A stretch of 31,015 nucleotides of DNA from a bacterium (GTDB lineage: Bacteria > CSSED10-310 > JAJRTK01), in assembly GCA_024278345.1 (NCBI GenBank), contig JAJRTK010000402.1:1-31015 (forward strand). The letters are read 5' to 3'. The position numbers and the translations under genes are program-made. The notes beneath the pieces are model-generated. The model worked only from the letters and a program-made list of their open reading frames with translations. It was not told the DNA's origin and searched no databases. This document shows, one piece after another, positions 1-29,544 of this stretch. How positions within the stretch are numbered: the stretch's first letter is position 1; each line of letters starts with the position of its first letter.

Positions 1-103
1 CGAGATCAAGGCAAAGGTGATGTACCTGGCTTTTTTATCTGGAGAGAATCGCGATACGGTCTGGTGGGTGGCATTTTTGGATCTGCGGAGGTTGGATGGC
101 TTC

Positions 104-1141
104 ATGGGGATTGCACGATGGGGAACAAAGATGGTGGGGGTCCTTGCCCTTGCTGGGGTGGCAAGCCTTCTTGGTTGTGGGGCTGAAAAGGAGCCTCGGG
201 TCACCGGTGGCGAACCGCTAGTGGGCCTGACGCTCTTCGAGGGCTGGAGGGATCCTCGGTCGGTTCGGGGGGACGTGAACACAGAGGGATGGGAAGACTC
301 AGCCTTCATTTCTCCGGGAGGCGATAGGCTCTATTTCGGGTACACTCGATGGGATGCGTGGGCGCTCTTCGCGGGCTTCGGACTGTGGGTAACAGGGCCG
401 GAAAGGCCGGGTCACTTGGGCAGCGCGTGGGATATCTACGAGGCGAATTTTTTGGGGGGAGCTTGGGAGACGGAGCATTCCCGCATCAATTCGCTGGATC
501 CGTCGGTTTCGGAGGCCGCGGTTGGTTTGGACGGGATGGAGTCGATGATGGCCTTCGTGCGCTTCGAGCCCGGGGGGGACCTTTATCTAGGGTTCAGGGG
601 CGCCGCTGGCTGGGGGGCCTCAGAGAAATTGCCGCCCCCGGTGAACACACCTTGTGAAGAAGACAATCCTCATCTGTCTTTCGACGGCGGGACGCTCTAC
701 TTCGACTCCAATCGCGGTGATCCACTGGGCGAAACATGTTTTGACGAGAGCGATGGGCTTCAACGGACAATTTACTTCACCCGCTGGGATGGGGCGAAGT
801 GGTCCACGCCTGTTCCGGTAGCCGGGGCGGTCAACGAAACGGATGTTCGGTGGCAAGTTTTTGTGACCGAGGGTGAAAAGTTGGCCTATTGGGCTGGCTG
901 GTCGAAGGATTGCGGTCGCACTTCCACCTGTTTATATCGTGCTCGCCTGCTGGAGGACGGGAGTTATGGAGAGCGGGTGTTGATCGCCCGGCCGGCTCCC
1001 TTCGACACGACATCACGGGTTTCGGTGATTTCTATCGGCGAGCCTTCGGTGACCCGGGCTGGAGATTGGCTATACTTTGTCTATCTGGTGAGGGATAGCG
1101 ATCAGCATTGGGATCTCTCCATTGGTGTGGCTGGGAAGTGA
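104..1141 (+). CDS. Lipoprotein with WD40-like (PD40) beta-propeller repeats
   Basis: Predicted 345-residue secreted lipoprotein. From ATG 104 the protein begins with a short basic region, a hydrophobic stretch and the lipobox Leu-Leu-Gly-Cys (Cys25), so it should be lipid-anchored in an outer or inner membrane. The frame is open to the window edge, but the signal peptide favours ATG 104 (GGAGG about 12 bases upstream) or ATG 131. The body carries repeats of the PD40 style: SPGGDRLYFG, then SFDGGTLYFDSNRGDP, then IYFTRWDGAKW, in the D-x-LYF / S-x-DG pattern of TolB-like propellers. Such proteins often bind peptides, glycans or peptidoglycan-associated partners. No catalytic residues are recognised. 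It lies 100 bases upstream of the HD-domain gene and its link to the polysaccharide operon is by position only. Fold call fairly sure, function unknown. Confidence 0.75.
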   Translation: MGIARWGTKMVGVLALAGVASLLGCGAEKEPRVTGGEPLVGLTLFEGWRDPRSVRGDVNTEGWEDSAFISPGGDRLYFGYTRWDAWALFAGFGLWVTGPERPGHLGSAWDIYEANFLGGAWETEHSRINSLDPSVSEAAVGLDGMESMMAFVRFEPGGDLYLGFRGAAGWGASEKLPPPVNTPCEEDNPHLSFDGGTLYFDSNRGDPLGETCFDESDGLQRTIYFTRWDGAKWSTPVPVAGAVNETDVRWQVFVTEGEKLAYWAGWSKDCGRTSTCLYRARLLEDGSYGERVLIARPAPFDTTSRVSVISIGEPSVTRAGDWLYFVYLVRDSDQHWDLSIGVAGK

Positions 1142-1241: not shown

Positions 1242-1859
1242 GTGGTGGGTGGCATGGATCTCCAAAGAGTAGAAAAACATATCTTTGCATATATGGAAGA
1301 TTACCTCCCAAAGGACTTGCACTTCCACTGTATCGCTCACACCAAGGAGGTTTATGGCAGTGCTCGGCACTACGCGGTGGAAGAAGGATTGACCGAGGAA
1401 GAAACGATTTGGGTCTTGACAGCGGCTCTGTTTCACGACGTGGGTTTCGTTCGCCAATACTCGAAAAATGAGCCTGTGGGGGCGGAGATCGCTCGCGAAA
1501 TGTTGGCTGAGTTTGGCTATGATGCTCAGGCAAGAGAGGTGATCGCCCAGTTGATCCTTGCGACTCAGTTGCCTCAAAGACCTGTTGATCGCTTGCAGGA
1601 GATTTTGTGTGACGCCGATCTGGACCATCTTGGGAGAGCCGATTTTCGCGTGAAGGGAGAGCTGCTCCGGAGAGAGAGGGAGATCTACCAGGACCTCCAT
1701 TGCACTGATGGGGAGTGGCAAAAGGTTCAACTCGATTTCCTGGAGGTACATCGCTACTTTACAAAGGCGGCGAAACGGCTTAGAGACCAGGGAAAGGCAA
1801 GGAATATAGATTGGATTCGCCGGCAGCTCGGTGGTGTTTCCGGGGATTCAAGAGGATGA
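1242..1859 (+). CDS. HD-domain metal-dependent phosphohydrolase-like protein
   Basis: A 205-residue soluble protein with the HD signature in order: His33 (in AHTKEV), His65-Asp66 (in ALFHDVGF), and Asp124 (in CDADLDHLG). These are the metal ligands of the HD superfamily, which hydrolyses phosphate esters of nucleotides and related molecules; the substrate cannot be read from the sequence. The start is ambiguous between GTG 1242 (GGTGAGGGT upstream) and ATG 1254 (GGTGGGTGG upstream). Its TGA overlaps the ATG of the McjB-like gene (ATGA), which implies translational coupling and a shared role. Alternatives are a small-molecule phosphatase or a signalling nucleotide hydrolase. Family sure, role open. 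Confidence 0.82.
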   Translation: MVGGMDLQRVEKHIFAYMEDYLPKDLHFHCIAHTKEVYGSARHYAVEEGLTEEETIWVLTAALFHDVGFVRQYSKNEPVGAEIAREMLAEFGYDAQAREVIAQLILATQLPQRPVDRLQEILCDADLDHLGRADFRVKGELLRREREIYQDLHCTDGEWQKVQLDFLEVHRYFTKAAKRLRDQGKARNIDWIRRQLGGVSGDSRG

Positions 1860-2335
1860 TAAGAAGATTGGTTCAGAAGGCCCGACTTTTTTGGTTTGCC
1901 TGCCGTGCAGTGATCTTGATGGTCTTCGTGCAGTGGCGGTGGACTCGGCTTTCCTTTCGGCCATTGTTGGGGCGAGTGTTGGCTCTGCCCGCCGGTAGGC
2001 TGTGCCCCGATGTGATGGAGGCTGCGAAGGCAACGGTCTGGGCACATCGTCGCTTTGCAGCCTCGGTGGGGCTCCGTGATTCTTGTGTTTCCAGGAGCCT
2101 GGTTGTGGCCGCTCTCGTGGCGGGACATCCCGGTGCGACGCTTCACCTGGGGTTCCGGGCCGCCGGTGACAAAGGGGTGGAGGGTCATGCTTGGGTTTGC
2201 GTCGGAGACCACACCATCGGAGGAATGGATCCGGGAGAAGCCGGGCAGGCCTACATCCAATTATTCCAGTTAGAGCTCCAGAGGCGGAGAAGGAGCTTTG
2301 TCGGGCGCTTTCTATCTTTGTGCCGGATGAAATAG
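1856..2335 (+). CDS. McjB-like transglutaminase-fold protease (lasso peptide B2-type)
   Basis: A 159-residue protein matching the Transglut_core3 / lasso-peptide biosynthesis B2 family, whose members cleave the leader from a ribosomal peptide. The probable catalytic triad is present: Cys77 (RDSCVSRSLVVAAL), His111 (VEGHAWV) and Asp118 (VGDHTIGG), with the family's Cys...R-x-L...GHAWV layout. The N-terminus has a hydrophobic segment (about residues 11-26) that may touch the membrane. ATG 1856 is chosen because it overlaps the HD-gene stop and follows AGAGG; an upstream in-frame ATG at 1811 would overlap the HD gene by 49 bases. A PqqD-like gene follows after a gap. No precursor peptide or cyclase gene is found here, so classical lasso synthesis is doubtful. 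B2-type genes also occur in polysaccharide loci with unknown substrates. Confidence 0.8.
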   Translation: MIRRLVQKARLFWFACRAVILMVFVQWRWTRLSFRPLLGRVLALPAGRLCPDVMEAAKATVWAHRRFAASVGLRDSCVSRSLVVAALVAGHPGATLHLGFRAAGDKGVEGHAWVCVGDHTIGGMDPGEAGQAYIQLFQLELQRRRRSFVGRFLSLCRMK

Positions 2336-2603
2336 GGCCGGGCATTGGAGGCCCGCTTTCGGCCATCGTGGTCCTTGGCTCGAAGCCCGGATTGTCCCGG
2401 ATTCGGGTCGTGTGACGTTTCCGGGGTTGGAGCGGGGTTTCGGGGTGATAGAGAGGCGAGTGGCGGCGGACGGATTGCCGTCGCCGGGAGCGGACTCAAC
2501 CCAAAGAGAGAAAAACGTTTTGATCAATGCAGGCCCTGCGGAGAGTTCACCACCAGAATTTGAAGCAGGTCCGGTGCGTGAAATGGGAAAAAGGTGCGGC
2601 GGA
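2336..2603 (+). other. 268-base gap between B2-type and PqqD-type genes, no convincing gene
   Basis: The PqqD frame stays open upstream to GTG 2412, but the extra residues are low-complexity and resemble nothing I know, so the gene is called from ATG 2604. The gap was read in all plus frames for a RiPP precursor. The only ATG-started short ORF is at 2527 (28 residues, Arg/Gln/His-rich), and it lacks a lasso-like leader Thr and a Gly...Asp/Glu core. A GC-rich imperfect hairpin lies around 2461-2484. No precursor is claimed. Confidence 0.5.
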
Positions 2604-2888
2604 ATGCAGATGATGACTTCTCTGAAGGGTCTTCGGACTCAACTTGACTGTCGCGGGTTCAGCTATCAGGAGTTGGGCAACGGGACAGCGGTGGTCTTGG
2701 ATCCGGAGAGTATGAGAGTGCTCACGCTCAATGATACGGGGTTCATACTGTTTCGGGCCATGGTGGAGGAGGCTCCATCGGTGGAGGAGTTGGTGACGTG
2801 CTTGACCGACACTTTCGATGTGCCGCCCGCCGTTGCGTTCAGGGACGTGGAGGCGTTTTTGATGAGCCTGGAGAGGCAACTTGGCTGA
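2604..2888 (+). CDS. PqqD-like RiPP recognition element protein (B1-type)
   Basis: A protein of about 94 residues of the PqqD family (PF05402), the small winged-helix domain that binds leader peptides in PQQ, lasso-peptide and related pathways. It shows the family path: a beta-hairpin (FSYQELGNGTAVVLDPES), the signature VLTLNDTG, the helix FILFRAM, and the C-terminal ELVTCLTDTFDV...DVEAFLMSL helices. ATG 2604 is preferred because it gives normal PqqD length and has AAGGTG eight bases upstream; ATG 2583, ATG 2610 and GTG 2412 are possible. Its stop overlaps the start of the outer-membrane barrel gene (TGATG), so it is translated with the export genes. With the adjacent B2-type protease it makes the B1/B2 pair of lasso systems, here without visible precursor or cyclase. 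Confidence 0.82.
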   Translation: MQMMTSLKGLRTQLDCRGFSYQELGNGTAVVLDPESMRVLTLNDTGFILFRAMVEEAPSVEELVTCLTDTFDVPPAVAFRDVEAFLMSLERQLG

Positions 2889-4255
2889 TGCGTCGCGGAC
2901 TCATTGCGCTTGTGATTCTTTTACTCTTGCACGTGGTTCCCGCGTTGACTTTGGCCCAGAGCGCACTTGACGGTCGTTTCGGGTCTTACACGAGGACTGG
3001 GGCAAACCTGTCCCTCACCTCTCCCCCCTTTGATCTTTTCAAGGATGGGATTGAGCGTGCCCTTTGGCGGATTGGGCCCCTTCGCTTGACTCCCATCCTT
3101 GAAGTGCGGAACGTCTCCTACGTGGCTCGGGTGGCGGTGAGCGATTCCCAACAGACCTCCGACAAGGGCGATTTGACGGCGACGGGGGGGGTTGGGATCC
3201 GAGGATATCTCAGGAATGGTTCCAAAATCCTGTGGAGTACTTTTGCCCGGAGTGACTATGTGTGGTGGCGGAGCTTCGAGGAGAAGCGGCGCTTGAACTT
3301 GAGTTATGGTGGGGTTGTGGAGGGAAAGTTCAACCGCTTGAGGTTGAGTTTGGCAGCCAATTCGCTTCGGGAACAGAGATATGTCTCGTCCGAATTGGAA
3401 CAGCCCATCGACGTTGCAACGGACAGCCTATCTTTTTCGTCGAATCTGAAATTGTCGGGACGGTTGAGCGCTTATGCGGCGGCAAGGGTCGGGCGCACGC
3501 GGAATTCCGATTCTCTGTCGCCAGATCTGGATCGTGACGTGAGGCGCTTGAATCGGTCGCAGTGGTCGGTGGGAGGGGGGGTTGCCGCGGAGATCCGTCG
3601 CTGGCTTCGCTTGAGAATAGGTCTTGCCCGTTCTGGGGCCGATTTCGACCTTTCCGAAGGCGATCGATCAAACACCAGAACGTCGTTCTTGCTTGGGGTG
3701 AACTTAGGAGACACGGCCAGTCCTTTTTCGTTGGCTCTGTCGTTGGCGTTGGGGGGCTACAGTGCAGGCGCCCGGAGTGTCGCGGTTTCTTCGATGCCGG
3801 TCACCGGTACCTTGAGGGCTCGTTGGAAGCCTGGACATCGCTTTGTGTTTGGATTCCAGGCAAGATACGCTTTCCTCTATTCGGTTCGATCCGCCGATGG
3901 CACCTTTGCAAGCCGCAGGGTTCGTTTTCTTGCCACGGCCCCTCTCGGTCGCCGTCTTTTCCCCGGGCTGTTTGTGGAGGCCGGTTGGGATGACCTGACT
4001 TCGGCGCTGTTGGATGCCAGCCAGCCTGGCTCTGGGGATAGCCTGGAACGGTACTACGCGGTGGGAGGGGAGTTAAGATTTGCGGTTGTGGAAAACCTGC
4101 AACTGGGGATTGTCGGGATCGTGGAGGATCATGATTCCTACCGGGATGAGGGTGACAGGCTTGTCACGCGCGTCGCGGCCACCGTCAGTTTTCGATTGAA
4201 TTTTGGGCCGCTGGGAGTCTCGGGTTTTGCGGATAGTGGTTCAGTGGGTTTTTAG
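2888..4255 (+). CDS. Outer-membrane beta-barrel protein of a polysaccharide locus
   Basis: A 455-residue protein with a signal peptide (MRRGLIALVILLLLHVVPAL, cleavage probably after LAQ near residue 24). The mature part is full of alternating hydrophobic/polar strands, and it ends in Phe (SGSVGF), the BAM beta-signal. It resembles the outer-membrane beta-barrel (BBP2-like) proteins often placed beside exopolysaccharide exporters, which may guide polymer across or along the outer membrane. ATG 2888 is chosen because of the signal peptide and the TGATG overlap with the PqqD-like gene; the longer frame from 2798 would overlap that gene by 90 bases. Wza follows after 135 bases. Localisation is fairly sure, the transport role is inferred. 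Confidence 0.78.
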   Translation: MRRGLIALVILLLLHVVPALTLAQSALDGRFGSYTRTGANLSLTSPPFDLFKDGIERALWRIGPLRLTPILEVRNVSYVARVAVSDSQQTSDKGDLTATGGVGIRGYLRNGSKILWSTFARSDYVWWRSFEEKRRLNLSYGGVVEGKFNRLRLSLAANSLREQRYVSSELEQPIDVATDSLSFSSNLKLSGRLSAYAAARVGRTRNSDSLSPDLDRDVRRLNRSQWSVGGGVAAEIRRWLRLRIGLARSGADFDLSEGDRSNTRTSFLLGVNLGDTASPFSLALSLALGGYSAGARSVAVSSMPVTGTLRARWKPGHRFVFGFQARYAFLYSVRSADGTFASRRVRFLATAPLGRRLFPGLFVEAGWDDLTSALLDASQPGSGDSLERYYAVGGELRFAVVENLQLGIVGIVEDHDSYRDEGDRLVTRVAATVSFRLNFGPLGVSGFADSGSVGF

Positions 4256-4280: not shown

Positions 4281-4310
4281 TTACAAGGGATTCAATGGCT
4301 GTGGTATGCT
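4281..4310 (+). promoter_or_regulatory. Candidate promoter upstream of the Wza-like gene
   Basis: TTACAA at 4281-4286 and TATGCT at 4305-4310, 18 bases apart, with TG one base before the -10 (TGGTATGCT, an extended -10 arrangement). The site is in the 135-base gap between the barrel and exporter genes, the largest break in this part of the operon. Weak match; read by eye only. Confidence 0.22.
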
Positions 4311-4390
4311 CGTTGTTTGGCAAGTCTGGGGGCACGGGAGATTGGCGGGGTCTTTTCAGCACTGGGGAACTTGAGGTGACCGGGATTTCG

Positions 4391-5260
4391 ATGAAACTCC
4401 GTTGGACAGCCATGTGTTGCCGAGGGGCGTGTTGGGGAGTGGCATGCCTGTTGTCAGGCGTCCTGACATGTGGTGCCGCGGAGATGGCAACTTCTTCGGC
4501 AGTGGAATATCGTGTTGGGCCTCGGGACTTGCTGGAAGTCAAAGTTCTAGAAGCGGAGGAGCTCAACACCCAGGGACGGGTTACCGAGTCGGGCAAGCTC
4601 AAGCTTCGGATCGCCGGAGATGTTGAGGTGGCGGGGATGACAAGGGCGGAGTGCGAAGTCCGTATCAAGGAGATCCTAGAGGCATCGTATATCCAGCGTG
4701 CCACCGTCCAGGTTCAGGTGCTGGAGTATCGGTCCAACCCGATCCGGGTGATGGGAGCCGTCAAAAATCCTGGTGAATATGGTGTGCCCGGTCGATTGAT
4801 GCTTCTGGAGGCACTGGAGCTTGCCGGTGGGTTGAGTGGCAAACAGGGCAAGTACGTTTATGTCTCTCGGAGGGCGAATAACGGTCTTTCTGATCGCCTT
4901 CGCATAGCATTGGATGACTTGTTGGGAAGACCGGATCGAGAGGTGAACATTCCCGTGTTCCCCAACGATGTGATCAAGGTTCCCATCCCCATGAACGTAA
5001 CGATTTACTGCATCGGGGAGTTTCGGAAACCGGGCTTGGTGACGTTCAAGAGCGATGAGCGAGTCAGTCTCCTCAAATTGGTTGCCCGCGTCGGGGGGTT
5101 CAGTGATAAGGCTTCCAACAAAGTATTGATCCGCCGCCGCACCCATCGGGGCAAAGAGATTGAGATCAAGGTCAACTACAAACGGATCGTTGCAGGTAAG
5201 GAGCCAGATGTCGAGCTGAAGCCAGACGACATCGTTGTCGTCAAGGAGTCGTTTTTCTGA
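4391..5260 (+). CDS. Wza-like polysaccharide export protein (Poly_export + SLBB)
   Basis: A 289-residue exporter of the outer-membrane polysaccharide export (OPX) family. After a signal peptide (hydrophobic core CWGVACLLSGVLT) comes a Poly_export domain (VEYRVGPRDLLEVKVLEAEE, then GKLKLRIAGDVEVAGMT). Two SLBB-type segments follow (VRVMGAVKNPGEYGVPG... and ITIYCIGEFRKPGLVTF-like). The Cys near residue 27 could be lipidated, but the preceding Thr makes a poor lipobox, so a type I signal is equally possible. ATG 4391 is chosen for the signal peptide; the longer frame from 4295 lacks one. The family forms the outer-membrane channel that docks on a Wzc-type co-polymerase. Its stop overlaps the Wzc-like start (TGATG), the normal exporter/kinase pairing. 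Confidence 0.92.
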   Translation: MKLRWTAMCCRGACWGVACLLSGVLTCGAAEMATSSAVEYRVGPRDLLEVKVLEAEELNTQGRVTESGKLKLRIAGDVEVAGMTRAECEVRIKEILEASYIQRATVQVQVLEYRSNPIRVMGAVKNPGEYGVPGRLMLLEALELAGGLSGKQGKYVYVSRRANNGLSDRLRIALDDLLGRPDREVNIPVFPNDVIKVPIPMNVTIYCIGEFRKPGLVTFKSDERVSLLKLVARVGGFSDKASNKVLIRRRTHRGKEIEIKVNYKRIVAGKEPDVELKPDDIVVVKESFF

Positions 5261-7611
5261 TGCCGCAAGACTCACTCCCAACATCTCAGTTTCTGGAAAC
5301 GCCTTCTCCTGGCGGAGAATTCCAGGTTGGGGACATCCTTGTCATTCTGCGGCGCCACGTGGCGCTCGTGGTCATCTTGCTCATTTTGGCGGAGACCTTG
5401 GCTGTCTTTCGTTACATGGCTACGCAAAAGATGTATCGGGCGGATGCCACCTTGCTGATCGAGCAGCGACTTTCGACGTCAAGCCCGATGGAAGCGTTTT
5501 TGCAACAGGCGTGGATGAGCACTCCGTATTTTAATACCCAGTATCGCCTGTTCAAGAGTCGTGGCCTGGCGGAAAGGGTCATCCGGACGCTCAATCTGTT
5601 GGAGGACCCGATCTTCAATCCCGTTCGATCCGTGGCGTTTAGCTCCACTGCCAGTTTCGAAGAGTTCGGCGCGGAGGTTGATACTTCCGCTTTGGCAACG
5701 GCGGGAAGGCGGGTTTTGGGCGGGCTGTTCGTCAAACCGATCCCCAATACTTACTTGGTGGACATCACTTACATTTCATCGTCGCCTCAGCTTGCGGCCA
5801 AGCTCGCCAACGGATTTGCGGAAGTTTTCATTGAGTGGGACGCGGAGAAACGTTTTCGCGCCGTGGGGCAAGCCTCGAGTTTCCTGGGATCGCAGATTAA
5901 GACCCTGAAGGACGAGATTACGGACAAGGAAGCGCAGCTCCTTGCCTACAGTCGGAGGATCGACATCGTTCCCACCAGCCAGGCAGGTGGAAATGACTCT
6001 AGCGTCACCGTGCAAAGGCTCCAGGCGTTGAATGCTGACTATATTAGAGCGGTTTCAGACAGAGTGGACAAGGAATCAAAGTTTCGGGAAGTCCTGAGTT
6101 CGGATCCGGCGGCTATTTTGGAAAACTTCGGCGAGGGGCCGCTCCAGGAACAGCGCAAACTTGTCGCCGAGTTGGAGCAGGAATATGCCGGCAAACTTGG
6201 GATCTATAAGCCCGAATGGCCGGCTATGAGAGAACTGAAAGCGAAGATTGAAAAAGCCAGGGAACATTTGGGCACCTTGATCAAGAAAGCGATAGCTGAA
6301 GTTCGCAGCCAAGCGGAGGCAAACTACCAGCGTGCATTGAGGCGAGAGCAACTGATGACTTCAGAGCTGGCTCGCCAAAAGGTGGAAGTCCTGGATCTCA
6401 ATTCGGCCGCTATCGAGTACAATAACCTCAAGGTTGAGATCTCCACGCGGCGCCAACTTCACAATCGCCTCATGAGCAAGCTCTCCGAAGCCGAGGTTGC
6501 GGCACAAATGGAGGGAACTTGGGAACCAAACGTGCGCGTCGTTGATCGGGCCATGGTGCCAAGCTCGCCCTTCAAACCGTCTTTGCGCGAGAACCTCCTG
6601 TACGGTTGCGTCATCGCACTGGCCCTGAGCTTCGCGATGATCTTTTTCTTTGAGTTTATGGATCGCCGGGTCAAGACACCGGAAGAGTTGGAGAGGCTTG
6701 TCGGCTGGCCGGTTTTGGCCGTGATCCCCGACATTTCCGCGAAGAAACGGCGATATGGCTACGGTTACGGTTACGGCTATGGCTACGGCTACGGCTACGG
6801 CTACGGCTACGGCTACGGTGGGAGCTCGAGGTCGCGTCGGAAGAAGGGGAAGCAGGTTGGCAATCCAAGAGTGGAAGCGAATATGCCGGCTGGCCGGTCA
6901 ATTGATCTCATACCCCATGTCCATCCTAAGATGCCCGTATCGGAAGCCTATCGATCTCTGAGGACGGCCTTGCTTCTCTCGACCGCGGCAAACCTGGAAG
7001 TTGTAAGTATCACTTCTTCTGTTCCGGGCGAAGGCAAGACCGCGACATCTGCCAACCTGGCCGTGGTCATGGCTCAGCTTGGGAAGCGGGTCCTCCTTGT
7101 GGATGCCGATCTGCGAAAACCAAGACTCCATCAAGTGTTTCAAGTCTCCAACCGACTGGGGTTGGTGAACGTCCTTGCCGCCAGCGCTGAACCCGACGAG
7201 GTCTTGTACCCCAGTGGCGTCCCCAATCTGTGGCTCATTCCCTCGGGGCCGCTTCCGCCGAATCCTTCAGAATTATTGGCGGCCGGCTCCATGCGGGAGT
7301 TCGTTAAATGGGCCACGGCTCGTTTCGATTTTCTCATTCTTGACACTCCCCCGGTTTTGCCGGTTACCGATCCCATTCCCGTGGGAACCCTCGTGGATGG
7401 TGTCGTCTTGTGTGTGGATGCCGGGTTCGTGCTGCGAGAGAATGTCTTGGCTTCCCGCGATCGTTTTGCGCTGGCCGAAGTCAAAGTCTTAGGTACCGTT
7501 CTCAATCGGTTCCAGAGCGGCCGAGGTCATCGTGGCAAGAGTAGTTACCAAGTCTACGAAACCTATTACAGAGAATCTCAGGTATTGGATTCGGCGGACA
7601 GTGCAGCATGA
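5260..7611 (+). CDS. Wzc-like polysaccharide co-polymerase / tyrosine autokinase (BY-kinase)
   Basis: A 783-residue inner-membrane protein with an N-terminal Wzz domain, a first membrane segment (about 28-46), a long periplasmic coiled-coil region (about 200-420), the proline motif PSSPFKPS, and a second membrane segment (about 448-466). A cytoplasmic BY-kinase follows: Walker A PGEGKT (589-594), Walker A' VLLVDAD (611-617) and Walker B FLILDTPP with Asp695. The C-terminal Tyr cluster (Tyr763, 766, 769, 770) is the usual autophosphorylation site. It controls chain length and export with Wza. Unusual: residues 499-520, between the second membrane segment and the kinase, are eleven Tyr-Gly units flanked by KKRR and RSRRKKGK. 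The start overlaps the Wza stop and the end overlaps the TPR-AMIN gene (ATGA). Confidence 0.95.
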   Translation: MPQDSLPTSQFLETPSPGGEFQVGDILVILRRHVALVVILLILAETLAVFRYMATQKMYRADATLLIEQRLSTSSPMEAFLQQAWMSTPYFNTQYRLFKSRGLAERVIRTLNLLEDPIFNPVRSVAFSSTASFEEFGAEVDTSALATAGRRVLGGLFVKPIPNTYLVDITYISSSPQLAAKLANGFAEVFIEWDAEKRFRAVGQASSFLGSQIKTLKDEITDKEAQLLAYSRRIDIVPTSQAGGNDSSVTVQRLQALNADYIRAVSDRVDKESKFREVLSSDPAAILENFGEGPLQEQRKLVAELEQEYAGKLGIYKPEWPAMRELKAKIEKAREHLGTLIKKAIAEVRSQAEANYQRALRREQLMTSELARQKVEVLDLNSAAIEYNNLKVEISTRRQLHNRLMSKLSEAEVAAQMEGTWEPNVRVVDRAMVPSSPFKPSLRENLLYGCVIALALSFAMIFFFEFMDRRVKTPEELERLVGWPVLAVIPDISAKKRRYGYGYGYGYGYGYGYGYGYGYGGSSRSRRKKGKQVGNPRVEANMPAGRSIDLIPHVHPKMPVSEAYRSLRTALLLSTAANLEVVSITSSVPGEGKTATSANLAVVMAQLGKRVLLVDADLRKPRLHQVFQVSNRLGLVNVLAASAEPDEVLYPSGVPNLWLIPSGPLPPNPSELLAAGSMREFVKWATARFDFLILDTPPVLPVTDPIPVGTLVDGVVLCVDAGFVLRENVLASRDRFALAEVKVLGTVLNRFQSGRGHRGKSSYQVYETYYRESQVLDSADSAA
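6754..6819 (+). repeat. In-frame hexanucleotide repeat encoding (Tyr-Gly)11
   Basis: Eleven units of TA(T/C)-GG(C/T); the downstream part is a nearly pure run of TACGGC. Codon variation (TAT, GGT) sits mostly in the upstream half, which suggests older units there and recent slippage or unequal exchange downstream. Because the unit is six bases, changes in copy number alter linker length without shifting the frame. Confidence 0.97.
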
Positions 7612-9377
7612 GTTGGTGTCGTTTGTTGGTTTTCCTCTTCTTAGGTTCGATCTTGTTTCAGCACGACCATGTGCTGGGATCTGACCGATTCTACCTGGAG
7701 CGGTTGAATGGTGGCATAGAGGCCTACACGTGGCAGAATTATGAAACAGCGGAGCAAGAGCTTCTCGTTGCCGCCTTTGGTCTGATGGAAGAACCACCCG
7801 AGCTCGCACGGGCTCTTGTTTACCTAGTACTGTGCCGCGCCGAGCTCAAGGCGAAGGAAGATCTTCTTGACAGCTTTCGGAGGCTGAGCCTTCTTGAGGA
7901 TCGATTTGGAGCCTACACCGCCGCGCCGTTGGCAGACGACGTCCGGAAGGTCTTCGAAGAAGAGCTTTTGAAACATATTCCCCAAGAACAGCTTGGGAAG
8001 AGCGGCTTTGCGCTGCGGTTCGTCCGACCGATTGATTCCATATTGGCACCGACTCTCTCTCCTCAGCAGCGCCGCAAGGCGCTGAAAAAGCTGATTCGTA
8101 AAGAGCCGTCCCACTTCCGCTGGCGGCTGCACCTGGCTCGGCTTGAGCTTCAGCAGCGCCGCGCAAAACGGGCGATCCGGGAAGCGACCCGTGTGTTGGA
8201 GACTGAAGCTGATCACCCAGAAGCCCTCGAAATCCGTGGTTTGGCGCGGAAGGAGAGAGGGGAGTGGGCCGCGGCCGCACAAGATTTGGAGGCGAGCGGA
8301 ATGGCGGCGAGTTCGCGGGAATCAGCTCGGGCACTGGTGGAGGCCTACATGAAGCTGGAACGCTGGCATGAAGCCAGGACTTTTTTGGAGAGCCTACCTC
8401 CGGCTTTCCAGAAAGAGAGCGAGTTGGAGCGCTATTTGGCTGATGCGCGGAAAGCTCTGGAAAGTTCGCCTACCCCCGAACCCGTCCAAGAGGTACCGGA
8501 CGGAATTTCTATTCCAGAGACGGCCCGAGTGGTGGAAGGCGGTAGCGAGATTCCCGAAACCCGGCCACGAAAAGAAAAGAACTCTTCTGCCTCTTCCGCT
8601 CAGGGAGCCTCCCAGCCCATGGACTCCATGCAGCTTGACGGGGTAGGAAACGACAAATCCATGGAAATGAGCTTGCGCCGAAGCGTGGAGAACTTTGCGA
8701 GGCAAGCGCCCTGGGTCATCTCTGCTGTTCCTTCTAACGTGACGGTTGGAAAGGGGGAGCTTCGGCCAGAGGAGTCAGAATCCGAGGGTTCGGAGATGTC
8801 GAGCGAGAAGACGGAGGGTGCGTCGCAAGGGAGGAGTTCGACATCCTTGCCGTCGGGTGTCGGCTCAAAAGAAAGCCTGGGAATCGATAGGGCCGGTGCC
8901 TCCAGTTTCAACGAAGATTCGCCTGGAGTTGCGGTTTCCAGTGTTTCGTCCATGGCTTCAGAAGTAGATTCATCCCAGACAGGTTCGGCAGCCAGTCAAG
9001 ATCACCAGGAGGGAGATGACCCTGGCAAGGAGGCCAAGGTGCCAGGTCGAGTGGGGAACTTCGGCGTTCTTTGGGAGCCTACGGGATTGATGTTCACGGC
9101 GTGGACATCGGGGGAGTTCACCCTCAATTACTTTCCAGTCGGGAACCCTCCTCGGTATGTCGTCGATTTCATGGGCGTGACGACGGCTCAAAAGAAACTG
9201 GTGATTCCCGCCAATCGGCTGGGAGTTTTTCGGCTCCGGGTGGCGGAACATAAGGACCGCGTGCGTTTGGTTCTGGATTTGGATGAAGGTGTCGAAGTTG
9301 ACGTTCGAGAGATCCTGCGAGAGGGTAGCCAACTGAAGGTCAGGCTGGGAATCGAGTACCAATCAAAACAGGATTGA
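7608..9377 (+). CDS. Secreted TPR-repeat protein with C-terminal AMIN domain
   Basis: A 589-residue protein with a signal peptide (residues 1-24, LLVFLFLGSILF core). TPR-like helical pairs run from about 35 to 290 (NYETAEQELLVAAFG; FRWRLHLARLELQQRRAKRAI; HPEALEIRGLARKERGEW). A disordered Ser/Glu/Pro-rich stretch covers about 295-480. A beta-rich AMIN-like domain follows from about 485 to 580 (RYVVDFMGVTT..., VFRLRVAEHKDRVRLVLDL). AMIN domains bind peptidoglycan or septal and envelope machinery, and TPRs bind proteins, so it probably scaffolds the export complex in the periplasm. It overlaps the BY-kinase stop (ATGA), placing it firmly in the export operon. Domain calls come from the residue pattern; the AMIN call is the less certain. 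Confidence 0.75.
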   Translation: MSWCRLLVFLFLGSILFQHDHVLGSDRFYLERLNGGIEAYTWQNYETAEQELLVAAFGLMEEPPELARALVYLVLCRAELKAKEDLLDSFRRLSLLEDRFGAYTAAPLADDVRKVFEEELLKHIPQEQLGKSGFALRFVRPIDSILAPTLSPQQRRKALKKLIRKEPSHFRWRLHLARLELQQRRAKRAIREATRVLETEADHPEALEIRGLARKERGEWAAAAQDLEASGMAASSRESARALVEAYMKLERWHEARTFLESLPPAFQKESELERYLADARKALESSPTPEPVQEVPDGISIPETARVVEGGSEIPETRPRKEKNSSASSAQGASQPMDSMQLDGVGNDKSMEMSLRRSVENFARQAPWVISAVPSNVTVGKGELRPEESESEGSEMSSEKTEGASQGRSSTSLPSGVGSKESLGIDRAGASSFNEDSPGVAVSSVSSMASEVDSSQTGSAASQDHQEGDDPGKEAKVPGRVGNFGVLWEPTGLMFTAWTSGEFTLNYFPVGNPPRYVVDFMGVTTAQKKLVIPANRLGVFRLRVAEHKDRVRLVLDLDEGVEVDVREILREGSQLKVRLGIEYQSKQD

Positions 9378-9416
9378 GTGGAGTTGAGCGGCCTATTCAA
9401 CATACGGGGGAGAATG

Positions 9417-11087
9417 ATGGAATCCCGTTTTTCAGGGTCCTTGATCATCCGCATGATGGTTGTGCTTGTGGCACTTGGGTTGGTGGCGCTTAGCGCGGTT
9501 GAGCAGATCCGTTGGAATCAGGATCGGGAACGCATTGCCGAACTTGTCCGGAGTTCGAAGCTTGAAAGCCGTTGGCCTGAGCTTGTTCGTCAGGTAGAGC
9601 GGGAGGCCGATCCTGACTGGGCTCGTTTAGGGATTGCCCGTGCCTTTCTGTCGGAAGCTGCCGATTACAGCGTTTTTTCACGTTTGCCTCAGTCCGAGGC
9701 GATTGCTGCGTTGACGAGCCTTGATGAGCGCCTAGAGTGGGCGCGGGATTTTGCAGCCAAGGCGCTTTGGGAGAGACCTTCAGTTTGGCAGTTTGCCTAT
9801 GTTTTGGGAGCTTCCAAATATCTGCTTTGGCTACGCCGAGGCGATGCGAGGCTTGTGGATAAGATGGAGACCTGGCTGAGGCCACTCCAGGTGGCCATCG
9901 AACTGGCGCCAGGAGAAAATGAGGCTCGGCGTTTTCTCATGGGAGCATACCTGAAGCTTTGGCGTTGGATACCCGCGGGGCCGTTGCGGGAGGATGCGAA
10001 AGATGCCTTGAGAAGGGGGCTTGCCGAGCCGGAGTTGTTCGATGAATATGCTCCCCTGTGGTTCAAAGTAGCACGGAATTTCGCGGAAGCTCGTTCCATC
10101 GTCCCGAAACGGCTGGAGGTTTGGCGGAAGCTGGAAGAAATTGGCGAAAGGGAGAGGGACTGGGCTCTCCATAGAGAAGCACGGCGCCAGGTGCTGGGCC
10201 TTTTAGATGCCGAGTTCGAGGATAAGCTTGGGCAAGCCAAAAGCGCTTTGGAAACAGGGGACGCCATGACTACCAGGAATCTTTTGGCGCTCCTCCTCAA
10301 ACAGACGCCAAGAAATGTGACTTCGGCACAACGATACACACAGATTTTTCAGATTTTTCCACCGGGATCGCTTCCCCCCGCGTCACTCAATCTCATCGAA
10401 GGTATTTTGGACTGGGCGCTCGAACGATGCTTGTGGGGCACATGCTTTTTGTCGCCATCGACGATGCAAAGGATGGCAGGTTTGTTGCCTCGGCTGGATT
10501 TCACCAAGCGCGGAATGGTTCTCCTGACAAAATCGAGATACTCCGAAGCGGAAATGCTCGAGTCCGCGGCCGGTCGGCTTCGTTCGGAGGAATGGATGCG
10601 CTATCGCCTTTTCAAGGCCCGGTCTCTGGTTGCACTTGGCGCTAGCGACAGGGCATTGAAGGAATTGGCCGATCTTCGGCCTCCGTGGAGCGACAGCCTG
10701 CTGACCCAAGTGACGGTGAAGGAAGCGGCACGGCTTGCCGGGGACTCGGCTCGGGAGCTGGAAGCAGAGAGGGCGCTCCGGAAGGCGCTGGCAGAACGAT
10801 GGCCACTGTCCGCTTGGAAGTGGGGGAAGGTTGGTGCCCAGCTAGCCGTTTGGCCGCCATCCGGTCGCTACATACTGGTTGTCGCCCTGGATAGAATCCC
10901 AGCAGGAGGGGGGGTGGTAGATTTTCTGTGGGATGGCTTGCCGCTCGGTTCGGCTGTGGCGAAGGAAGGGGTTGAAACGTTCCGTTTTGACGTTCAGATT
11001 GAGGATGGGCTCCATCTCTTGGAATTGGTTTATGTCGCTGGTGCCCGGATCCGGCCTGGAGACGTGTGGCTGGAAAAGAGGGAATGA
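9417..11087 (+). CDS. Membrane-anchored helical-repeat protein of unknown function
   Basis: A 556-residue protein with one N-terminal membrane anchor (IIRMMVVLVALGLVALSAV, about residues 10-28). A long helical region, probably TPR/SEL1-like, carries Trp-rich helices. A short beta-rich tail (about 470-556, RYILVVALDRIPAGGGVVDF...) resembles a small beta-sandwich. ATG 9417 follows GGGGGAGA at good spacing; ATG 9414 and GTG 9378 are alternatives. I recognise no family. It is the last gene of the plus-strand export operon, 39 bases after the TPR-AMIN gene and just before the convergent operon. This position and its topology suggest a periplasmic scaffold for polymer synthesis or export. Confidence 0.7.
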   Translation: MESRFSGSLIIRMMVVLVALGLVALSAVEQIRWNQDRERIAELVRSSKLESRWPELVRQVEREADPDWARLGIARAFLSEAADYSVFSRLPQSEAIAALTSLDERLEWARDFAAKALWERPSVWQFAYVLGASKYLLWLRRGDARLVDKMETWLRPLQVAIELAPGENEARRFLMGAYLKLWRWIPAGPLREDAKDALRRGLAEPELFDEYAPLWFKVARNFAEARSIVPKRLEVWRKLEEIGERERDWALHREARRQVLGLLDAEFEDKLGQAKSALETGDAMTTRNLLALLLKQTPRNVTSAQRYTQIFQIFPPGSLPPASLNLIEGILDWALERCLWGTCFLSPSTMQRMAGLLPRLDFTKRGMVLLTKSRYSEAEMLESAAGRLRSEEWMRYRLFKARSLVALGASDRALKELADLRPPWSDSLLTQVTVKEAARLAGDSARELEAERALRKALAERWPLSAWKWGKVGAQLAVWPPSGRYILVVALDRIPAGGGVVDFLWDGLPLGSAVAKEGVETFRFDVQIEDGLHLLELVYVAGARIRPGDVWLEKRE

Positions 11088-29390: not shown

Positions 29391-29544
29391 GGGACCTATC
29401 AAATCCCCGCGCTTTTGCTTTACACTCCGCGGCACCGCCCTGGTGGCACCGGCATCTTGCCGGTGGCGGGCTGGCCGGGATTCACGGAATTGAACGGTGG
29501 GTTCCTTTCGTGCGTGGACTTGTCAACCGGATCTGATAGGTCCC
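29391..29544. mobile_element. 154-bp MITE-like element at the GT2/methyltransferase junction
   Basis: Ends are GGGACCTATCAAATCC (29391-29406) and GGATCTGATAGGTCCC (29529-29544), inverse complements with one mismatch in 16. CATTTTTC flanks both sides (29383-29390 and 29545-29552), an 8-bp target duplication. It carries the GT2 stop codon and a palindrome at 29447-29465. Excision with one duplication makes the GT2 end KSEKNGL-stop, overlapping the ATG of the methyltransferase remnant by 11 bases, the spacing style of this locus. Confidence 0.87.

Follow-up and report, generated by a model that had tools for sequence, protein, structure and literature searches.

A B2-type leader peptidase and a PqqD-type RRE in the gene run of a Wza/Wzc polysaccharide export operon, possibly a split, trans-acting RiPP pair

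In other bacteria, proteins of the RRE and B2 families bind and trim the N-terminal leader of peptide natural products. In the DNA analysed here, one gene of each family stands among genes for polysaccharide export. An earlier note on this DNA had described an orphan RiPP-type module made up of an HD-domain protein, a B2 protease and an RRE. The stretch analysed, called the window, is the complete contig C338 (31,015 bp) of a 6.06-Mb genome that is 87.9% complete and distributed over 550 contigs; the genomes searched include only seven others from its phylum. The following features are relevant.

17-1141, forward strand: beta-propeller-like protein of 374 aa, the first complete gene of the contig
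1254-1859 (GTG 1242 possible as start), forward strand: HD-domain phosphohydrolase-like gene (PF01966)
1856-2335, forward strand: B2/McjB-type leader peptidase (Transglut_core3), 159 aa (PF13471, NF033537)
2441-2542, forward strand: copy of a dispersed hairpin repeat, non-coding, between the B2 and PqqD genes
2604-2888, forward strand: PqqD-type RRE, 94 aa (PF05402, scored on a longer ORF)
2888-4255, forward strand: ORF of a putative outer-membrane beta-barrel protein, joined to the preceding gene by a TGATG overlap (weak PF13557 match)
4295-5260 (ATG 4391 possible as start), forward strand: Wza-like polysaccharide export protein (PF02563, 61.4 bits)
5260-7611, forward strand: Wzc-like chain-length determinant and tyrosine autokinase (TIGR01007, 159.8 bits; PF02706; PF13807)
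7608-9377, forward strand: export-operon protein with TPR and AMIN domains (PF14559, PF11741)
9378-11087, forward strand: a further gene after the TPR-AMIN gene

The B2 and PqqD genes lie in a same-strand gene run that leads into a Wza/Wzc-type export operon, recognised by a Poly_export/SLBB protein followed by a Wzz-tyrosine kinase (PF02563, PF22461, PF02706, TIGR01007). The placement of an RRE and a B2 inside a polysaccharide export operon, as described in the earlier note, is borne out by the wza and wzc genes downstream in the same run. The Wzc-like protein scores above the TIGR01007 cut-off, and the Wza-like protein stays below the cut-offs of both TIGR03027 (112.6 bits) and TIGR03028 (107.9 bits). 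Downstream of 11087 follow polysaccharide ligase/polymerase-like, sugar-modifying and glycosyltransferase genes, mostly on the minus strand, where gene names come from reading the sequences and not from family searches. Between the membrane part and the kinase domain of the Wzc-like protein sits a (Tyr-Gly)n stretch, encoded by a GGCTAC hexanucleotide tandem repeat of 10.3 copies (6757-6818), which is possibly a phosphorylation target or a length-variable linker. A second palindrome-rich, repeat-like element, GGCACCGGCATCTTGCCGGTGGC, is found where a glycosyltransferase gene ends (about 29401-29521), and translated strings resembling it also occur on contigs C292 and C341.

The B2 protein was correctly recognised at the outset. 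It scores 44.2 bits against PF13471 (cut-off 26) and 41.3 bits against the NCBIfam model NF033537, lasso_biosyn_B2 (cut-off 33), and by the latter score the window holds the B2 leader peptidase that is looked for in a lasso cluster. The HD, B2 and PqqD proteins all exceed their curated Pfam cut-offs, with scores far beyond chance. Cys77, His111 and Trp113 are invariant in 35/35 aligned B2 proteins, and the cysteine and histidine support, at the level of sequence, a working cysteine peptidase. Of the three residues that the earlier note had reported in place, Cys77 and His111 hold; Asp118 was rejected as the third residue of the family, as column 118 contains Asp in only 3/35 proteins and usually Gly. 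Asp125 is a possible third catalytic residue, the single-sequence structure model (pLDDT 50) being too poor to place one. The residue after the catalytic cysteine is Val78 in the window and Leu in 31/35 proteins. A FastTree phylogeny separates a first clade that includes cyclase-linked proteins (Asn-synthetase-like partners), mostly with the motif A-H-A-W, from a second one with radical SAM or HprK-like neighbours, mostly G-H-x-W; automatic partner labels missed some adjoining cyclases, and the neighbourhood output was used as well. The window B2 falls weakly into the cyclase-holding clade (support 0.83, long branch), though its motif is G-H-A-W. Its ATGA coupling to the HD gene, noted earlier, was found as an overlap at 1856-1859.

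The PqqD-like RRE is likewise present, with 49.3 bits against PF05402 (cut-off 23.4) on the longer ORF. It lies below the cut-off of all NCBIfam lasso PqqD models, the best match being lasso_PqqD_Strm with 30.5 bits versus a cut-off of 70. Structure prediction, of low confidence (pLDDT 55), gives three strands followed by three helices, and both B2 (pLDDT 50) and PqqD, modelled without alignments, were left out of fold searches. The alignment with TfuB1 (PDB 6JX3), an RRE relative of solved structure, is weak (E 0.16). The ORF first assigned to this gene (2412-2888) proved overlong. Its N-terminal extension is not protein because positions 2441-2542 are a copy of a dispersed repeat, so that the first 64 codons are intergenic DNA, the start at 2412 was rejected and ATG 2604 is the likely start. 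With this start, a gap of 268 bp separates the B2 and PqqD genes, and the two are not tightly coupled. The repeat measures about 60-100 bp, has the core AGGCGAGTGGCGGCGGACGGATTGCCGCCGCCGCGAGCGGACTCAACCCAAAGAAAG, and its consensus forms a GC-rich stem-loop; at least 40 copies exist in the genome (40 scored of 418 first-look candidates), spread over no fewer than 30 contigs besides this one (L120-L148), and its presence at 2441-2542 ties the window contig to this genome.

On its other side, the PqqD gene is joined to the next gene by the TGATG overlap reported earlier (2886-2890). The identity of that neighbour as an outer-membrane barrel is plausible and unproven: its sole domain match, PF13557, is weak and sub-threshold (16.5 bits), and no relatives were found in 386 genomes. 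When used as synteny markers in these genomes, the barrel accordingly gave 0 homologues and the HD gene one distant relative; a plasmid search using B2 and PqqD gave no match.

The HD gene, which starts at ATG 1254 or GTG 1242, scores 38.9 bits against PF01966 (cut-off 22), and the metal-site residues H25, H29, H61, D62, D120 and D122 are conserved in 22/22 aligned relatives. The protein is an ordinary HD phosphohydrolase. A contig scan gave 40 relatives, mostly from Bacteroidota and some fused into longer proteins; near these 40, no convincing B2 or PqqD match was detected, with a valid B2 model and a partly mis-framed PqqD model that makes the PqqD half of the test weak. The proposal that this gene belongs to a RiPP-type module was rejected on that basis. 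It shares a putative transcription unit with the B2 gene and is probably not RiPP machinery.

The partners normally expected of such a pair were searched for in the window and in the rest of the genome. No Asn-synthetase-like cyclase was found on the 31-kb contig, and a regular-expression scan of the window for a precursor with a [Y/W]xxPxL...G.....T leader recovered none, in agreement with the earlier note, which had found neither a cyclase nor a recognisable precursor. Two matches were rejected, one because it falls within the SLBB region of Wza and the other because its ORF is antisense, as were chance ORFs. In control B2 loci, the same expression finds leader-like small ORFs in approximately 11 of about 34 (around a third), including YETPRLTKLGSVEQLT and YASPRLVAYGSLTKLT; it misses most radical-SAM-type loci, and the lack of a canonical leader is therefore only moderate evidence. 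The contig also contains no YxxPxVLxHQ precursor motif of the LPP (linear polyphosphorylated peptide) type, and no SpI-type peptidase, HprK-like kinase or NTP transferase was recognised beside the B2 and PqqD genes.

In the whole genome, the precursor pattern gave 10 matches versus 9 in the reversed control. A free-standing precursor elsewhere was consequently discarded, matches being at control level with the exception of contig C149 (L008), which carries the only credible canonical leader of the recovered genome. It belongs to a separate cassette of precursor, radical SAM, PqqD and B2 genes, the last being the second B2 of the genome and a member of the radical SAM/HprK clade. The precursor-like ORF ends in ...KPFVKPMLIRHESLPEVTTGFVGSFVP, and its leader is akin to the LPP motif YxxPxVLxHQ. 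The earlier note had considered that B2 and PqqD genes with a precursor elsewhere in the genome would speak against its proposal, and such a set does exist in part, with a radical SAM gene. Further PqqD genes are located on C292 (with an HprK-like gene), C118 and C39 (adjoining a radical SAM gene). A lasso-type cyclase was not found in the recovered genome. Two full asparagine synthetases are encoded on contigs other than the window, one with a Met-Cys start (C398) and one with MCGICG (C546), and they are not of the lasso kind. A 438-aa AsnS-like protein on C341, which has no N-terminal Cys, was dismissed as the missing cyclase, its similarity to lasso cyclases being distant (E 6e-4, to a single lasso-type cyclase). 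Its gene adjoins, by sequence look, an FAD-dependent halogenase gene, with a DUF362-like ORF nearby, and the locus (L157:1816-5761) is a possible natural-product cluster.

The association of the two families was assessed in a survey of 386 genomes, 55 of which gave PF13471 matches at E<=1e-6, and 32 loci were fetched. A PqqD gene lies less than 2 kb from the B2 gene in 22/36 cases against 0.07 expected, which argues that the B2/PqqD pair is a real unit. Placement of PqqD within 5 kb of wza was observed six times versus 0.33 expected at random in 32 B2-bearing genomes, a statistic in which the genomes were picked for having a B2 and the window, which itself prompted the test, is counted. Two of the six PqqD genes belong to one lasso cluster in G360 (cyclase-like gene, precursor, B2, PqqD) that adjoins wza/wzc; the others are in G126, G263, G157 and the window. 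In G126 and G263, a set of radical SAM, PqqD, HprK-like and precursor genes is divergent from wza, and the precursors (L159:8202-8330, minus strand; L160:7849-8088, minus strand) are near-identical, with KPxLTKYGTVKDVY[T/S]GPSCKA.M....DK. These two genomes represent different families; the core of the precursor is conserved as well as the leader, and the radical SAM protein is of the SPASM type. The G157:C2 case has no evident RiPP cluster; it stays in the count and was given no weight. Since the genomes were picked for a B2, the window prompted the test and G126 and G263 share a precursor, independent support amounts to two lineages besides the window, and the excess of PqqD beside wza is suggestive.

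A separation of B2 from its presumed partners has a parallel in G003, a genome of the same phylum. Three cyclase-like plus PqqD loci are found there (contigs L163, L164 and L165), their cyclase-like genes being Asn-synthetase-like without the N-terminal Cys, and leader-like small ORFs occur at two of the three. No B2 was detected by profile within the stretches read at these loci; the one B2 detected in G003 stands alone on contig C250 (L011:9205-9705), from a search that scored 11/66 first-look candidates, so that a divergent second B2 is possible.

RiPP clusters have already been described in polysaccharide loci. For Bacilli, Popov et al. 2026 reported capsular-polysaccharide loci that contain lasso and LPP clusters, with RRE, B2, HprK-like kinase and NTP transferase genes; the authors suggest a link to biofilms, and the role is not known (PMC13381572). 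In known lasso biosynthesis a discrete RRE binds the precursor leader and hands it over for cleavage by B2 (PMC13381572). With this precedent, and with the RRE clusters beside wza in the survey, the earlier statement that leader-guided maturation had yet to be described for loci of this kind was too strong; the window is an unusual placement of known machinery. Compared with discrete lasso B1 and B2 pairs, it has both protein families, the B2 above the NF033537 cut-off, whereas the contig carries neither precursor A nor macrolactam cyclase C, PqqD is below the NCBIfam lasso cut-offs and the order is B2, repeat, PqqD. The paeninodin-like lasso and LPP clusters of Bacilli resemble it in placing an RRE (and, in the lasso case, a B2) in polysaccharide loci. 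They differ in having precursors, an HprK-like kinase, an NTP transferase and a transporter, and in many cases a cyclase or SpI peptidase, none of which the window has, and the window lineage uses Wza-type export. SynChlorMet-like cassettes with B2/PqqD, radical SAM (SPASM) and HprK-like genes, such as that on C149, have the B2 and PqqD families in common with the window; they possess a PF-x-x-P-x-L type leader, whereas the window is without radical SAM, kinase and precursor genes, and the cassette B2 is in the other clade.

We tentatively favour, at a little less than an even chance, the reading that B2 and PqqD belong to the lasso (B1/B2) lineage and form a split, trans-acting pair for leader processing. 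The RRE would bind the leader at the N-terminus of a peptide whose gene lies on another contig or in unassembled genome sequence, and would pass it to the B2 cysteine peptidase for removal; the enzyme that modifies the peptide would likewise come from another locus. Being co-transcribed with the export operon, the pair might mature the peptide when surface polysaccharide is made, and the HD protein would be a co-transcribed bystander, possibly regulatory. This reading draws on the family scores, the invariant Cys77 and His111, the weak placement of B2 in the cyclase-holding clade, the proximity of B2 and PqqD in the survey, the PqqD-wza excess, the G360 lasso cluster, the Bacilli loci (PMC13381572), and G003, where cyclase-like plus PqqD loci without a detected B2 accompany a lone B2. 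It is weakened by the lack of a lasso-type cyclase in the recovered genome, by a sole credible leader for which C149 itself provides B2, PqqD and radical SAM, by the repeat between the two genes, and by four PqqD-wza cases that are without an adjoining B2 or come from one genome. As the genome is incomplete and fragmented and the window spans its contig from end to end, "elsewhere" is only partly checkable. The main rival, which we hold to be unlikely, is that the two genes are the decaying remnant of a lasso-type cluster that lost its precursor and cyclase, and persist without function. The long branch of the B2, the unusual residues after Cys77, the intervening repeat, a contig without a cyclase or canonical precursor and a PqqD match that ends before the end of the profile (62-63 of 67 positions) are consistent with decay. 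Both ORFs, however, are open and full length, the Cys, His and Trp are invariant, and the start/stop overlaps of both genes with their neighbours suggest that translational coupling has been maintained.

Less likely again is an ordinary lasso or other RiPP cluster cut by the contig end, its precursor and its cyclase or radical SAM gene lying upstream of base 1. The window is a whole contig, its first complete gene runs in the same direction, so that the operon may extend upstream, and most B2 genes occur within 2-5 kb of PqqD, frequently with a cyclase or radical SAM gene close by; however, between the contig end and B2 lie the genes of the 374-aa beta-propeller-like protein and the HD protein, and surveyed clusters are usually contiguous. 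We consider it improbable that an RRE and a lasso-type B2, unaided by a cyclase or any other modifying enzyme, are the maturation machinery for a peptide or exported protein of polysaccharide export or surface assembly, as a recruited house function of the Wza/Wzc operon. Its narrower form, in which the pair removes a leader-like N-terminus from a protein of the export machinery, e.g., the barrel or another exported protein, appears very improbable: the PqqD-barrel coupling and the shared run with wza/wzc would fit, but no operon protein has a YxxPxL-type leader at its N-terminus, known systems have B2 and PqqD in the cytoplasm, and we know of no comparable case. Most improbable of all is that the pair serves as a second protease/RRE set for the C149 precursor, the sole credible canonical leader of the recovered genome, as C149 itself encodes a B2, a PqqD and a radical SAM protein, and the C149 B2 belongs to the other clade.

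A Wza-type case in a poorly sampled phylum, the excess of PqqD beside wza and the split B2 of G003 together suggest that the link between RiPPs and polysaccharides reaches beyond Bacilli, and also that trans sharing of RiPP leader peptidases is possible. If this is true, genome mining that proceeds cluster by cluster misses pathways.
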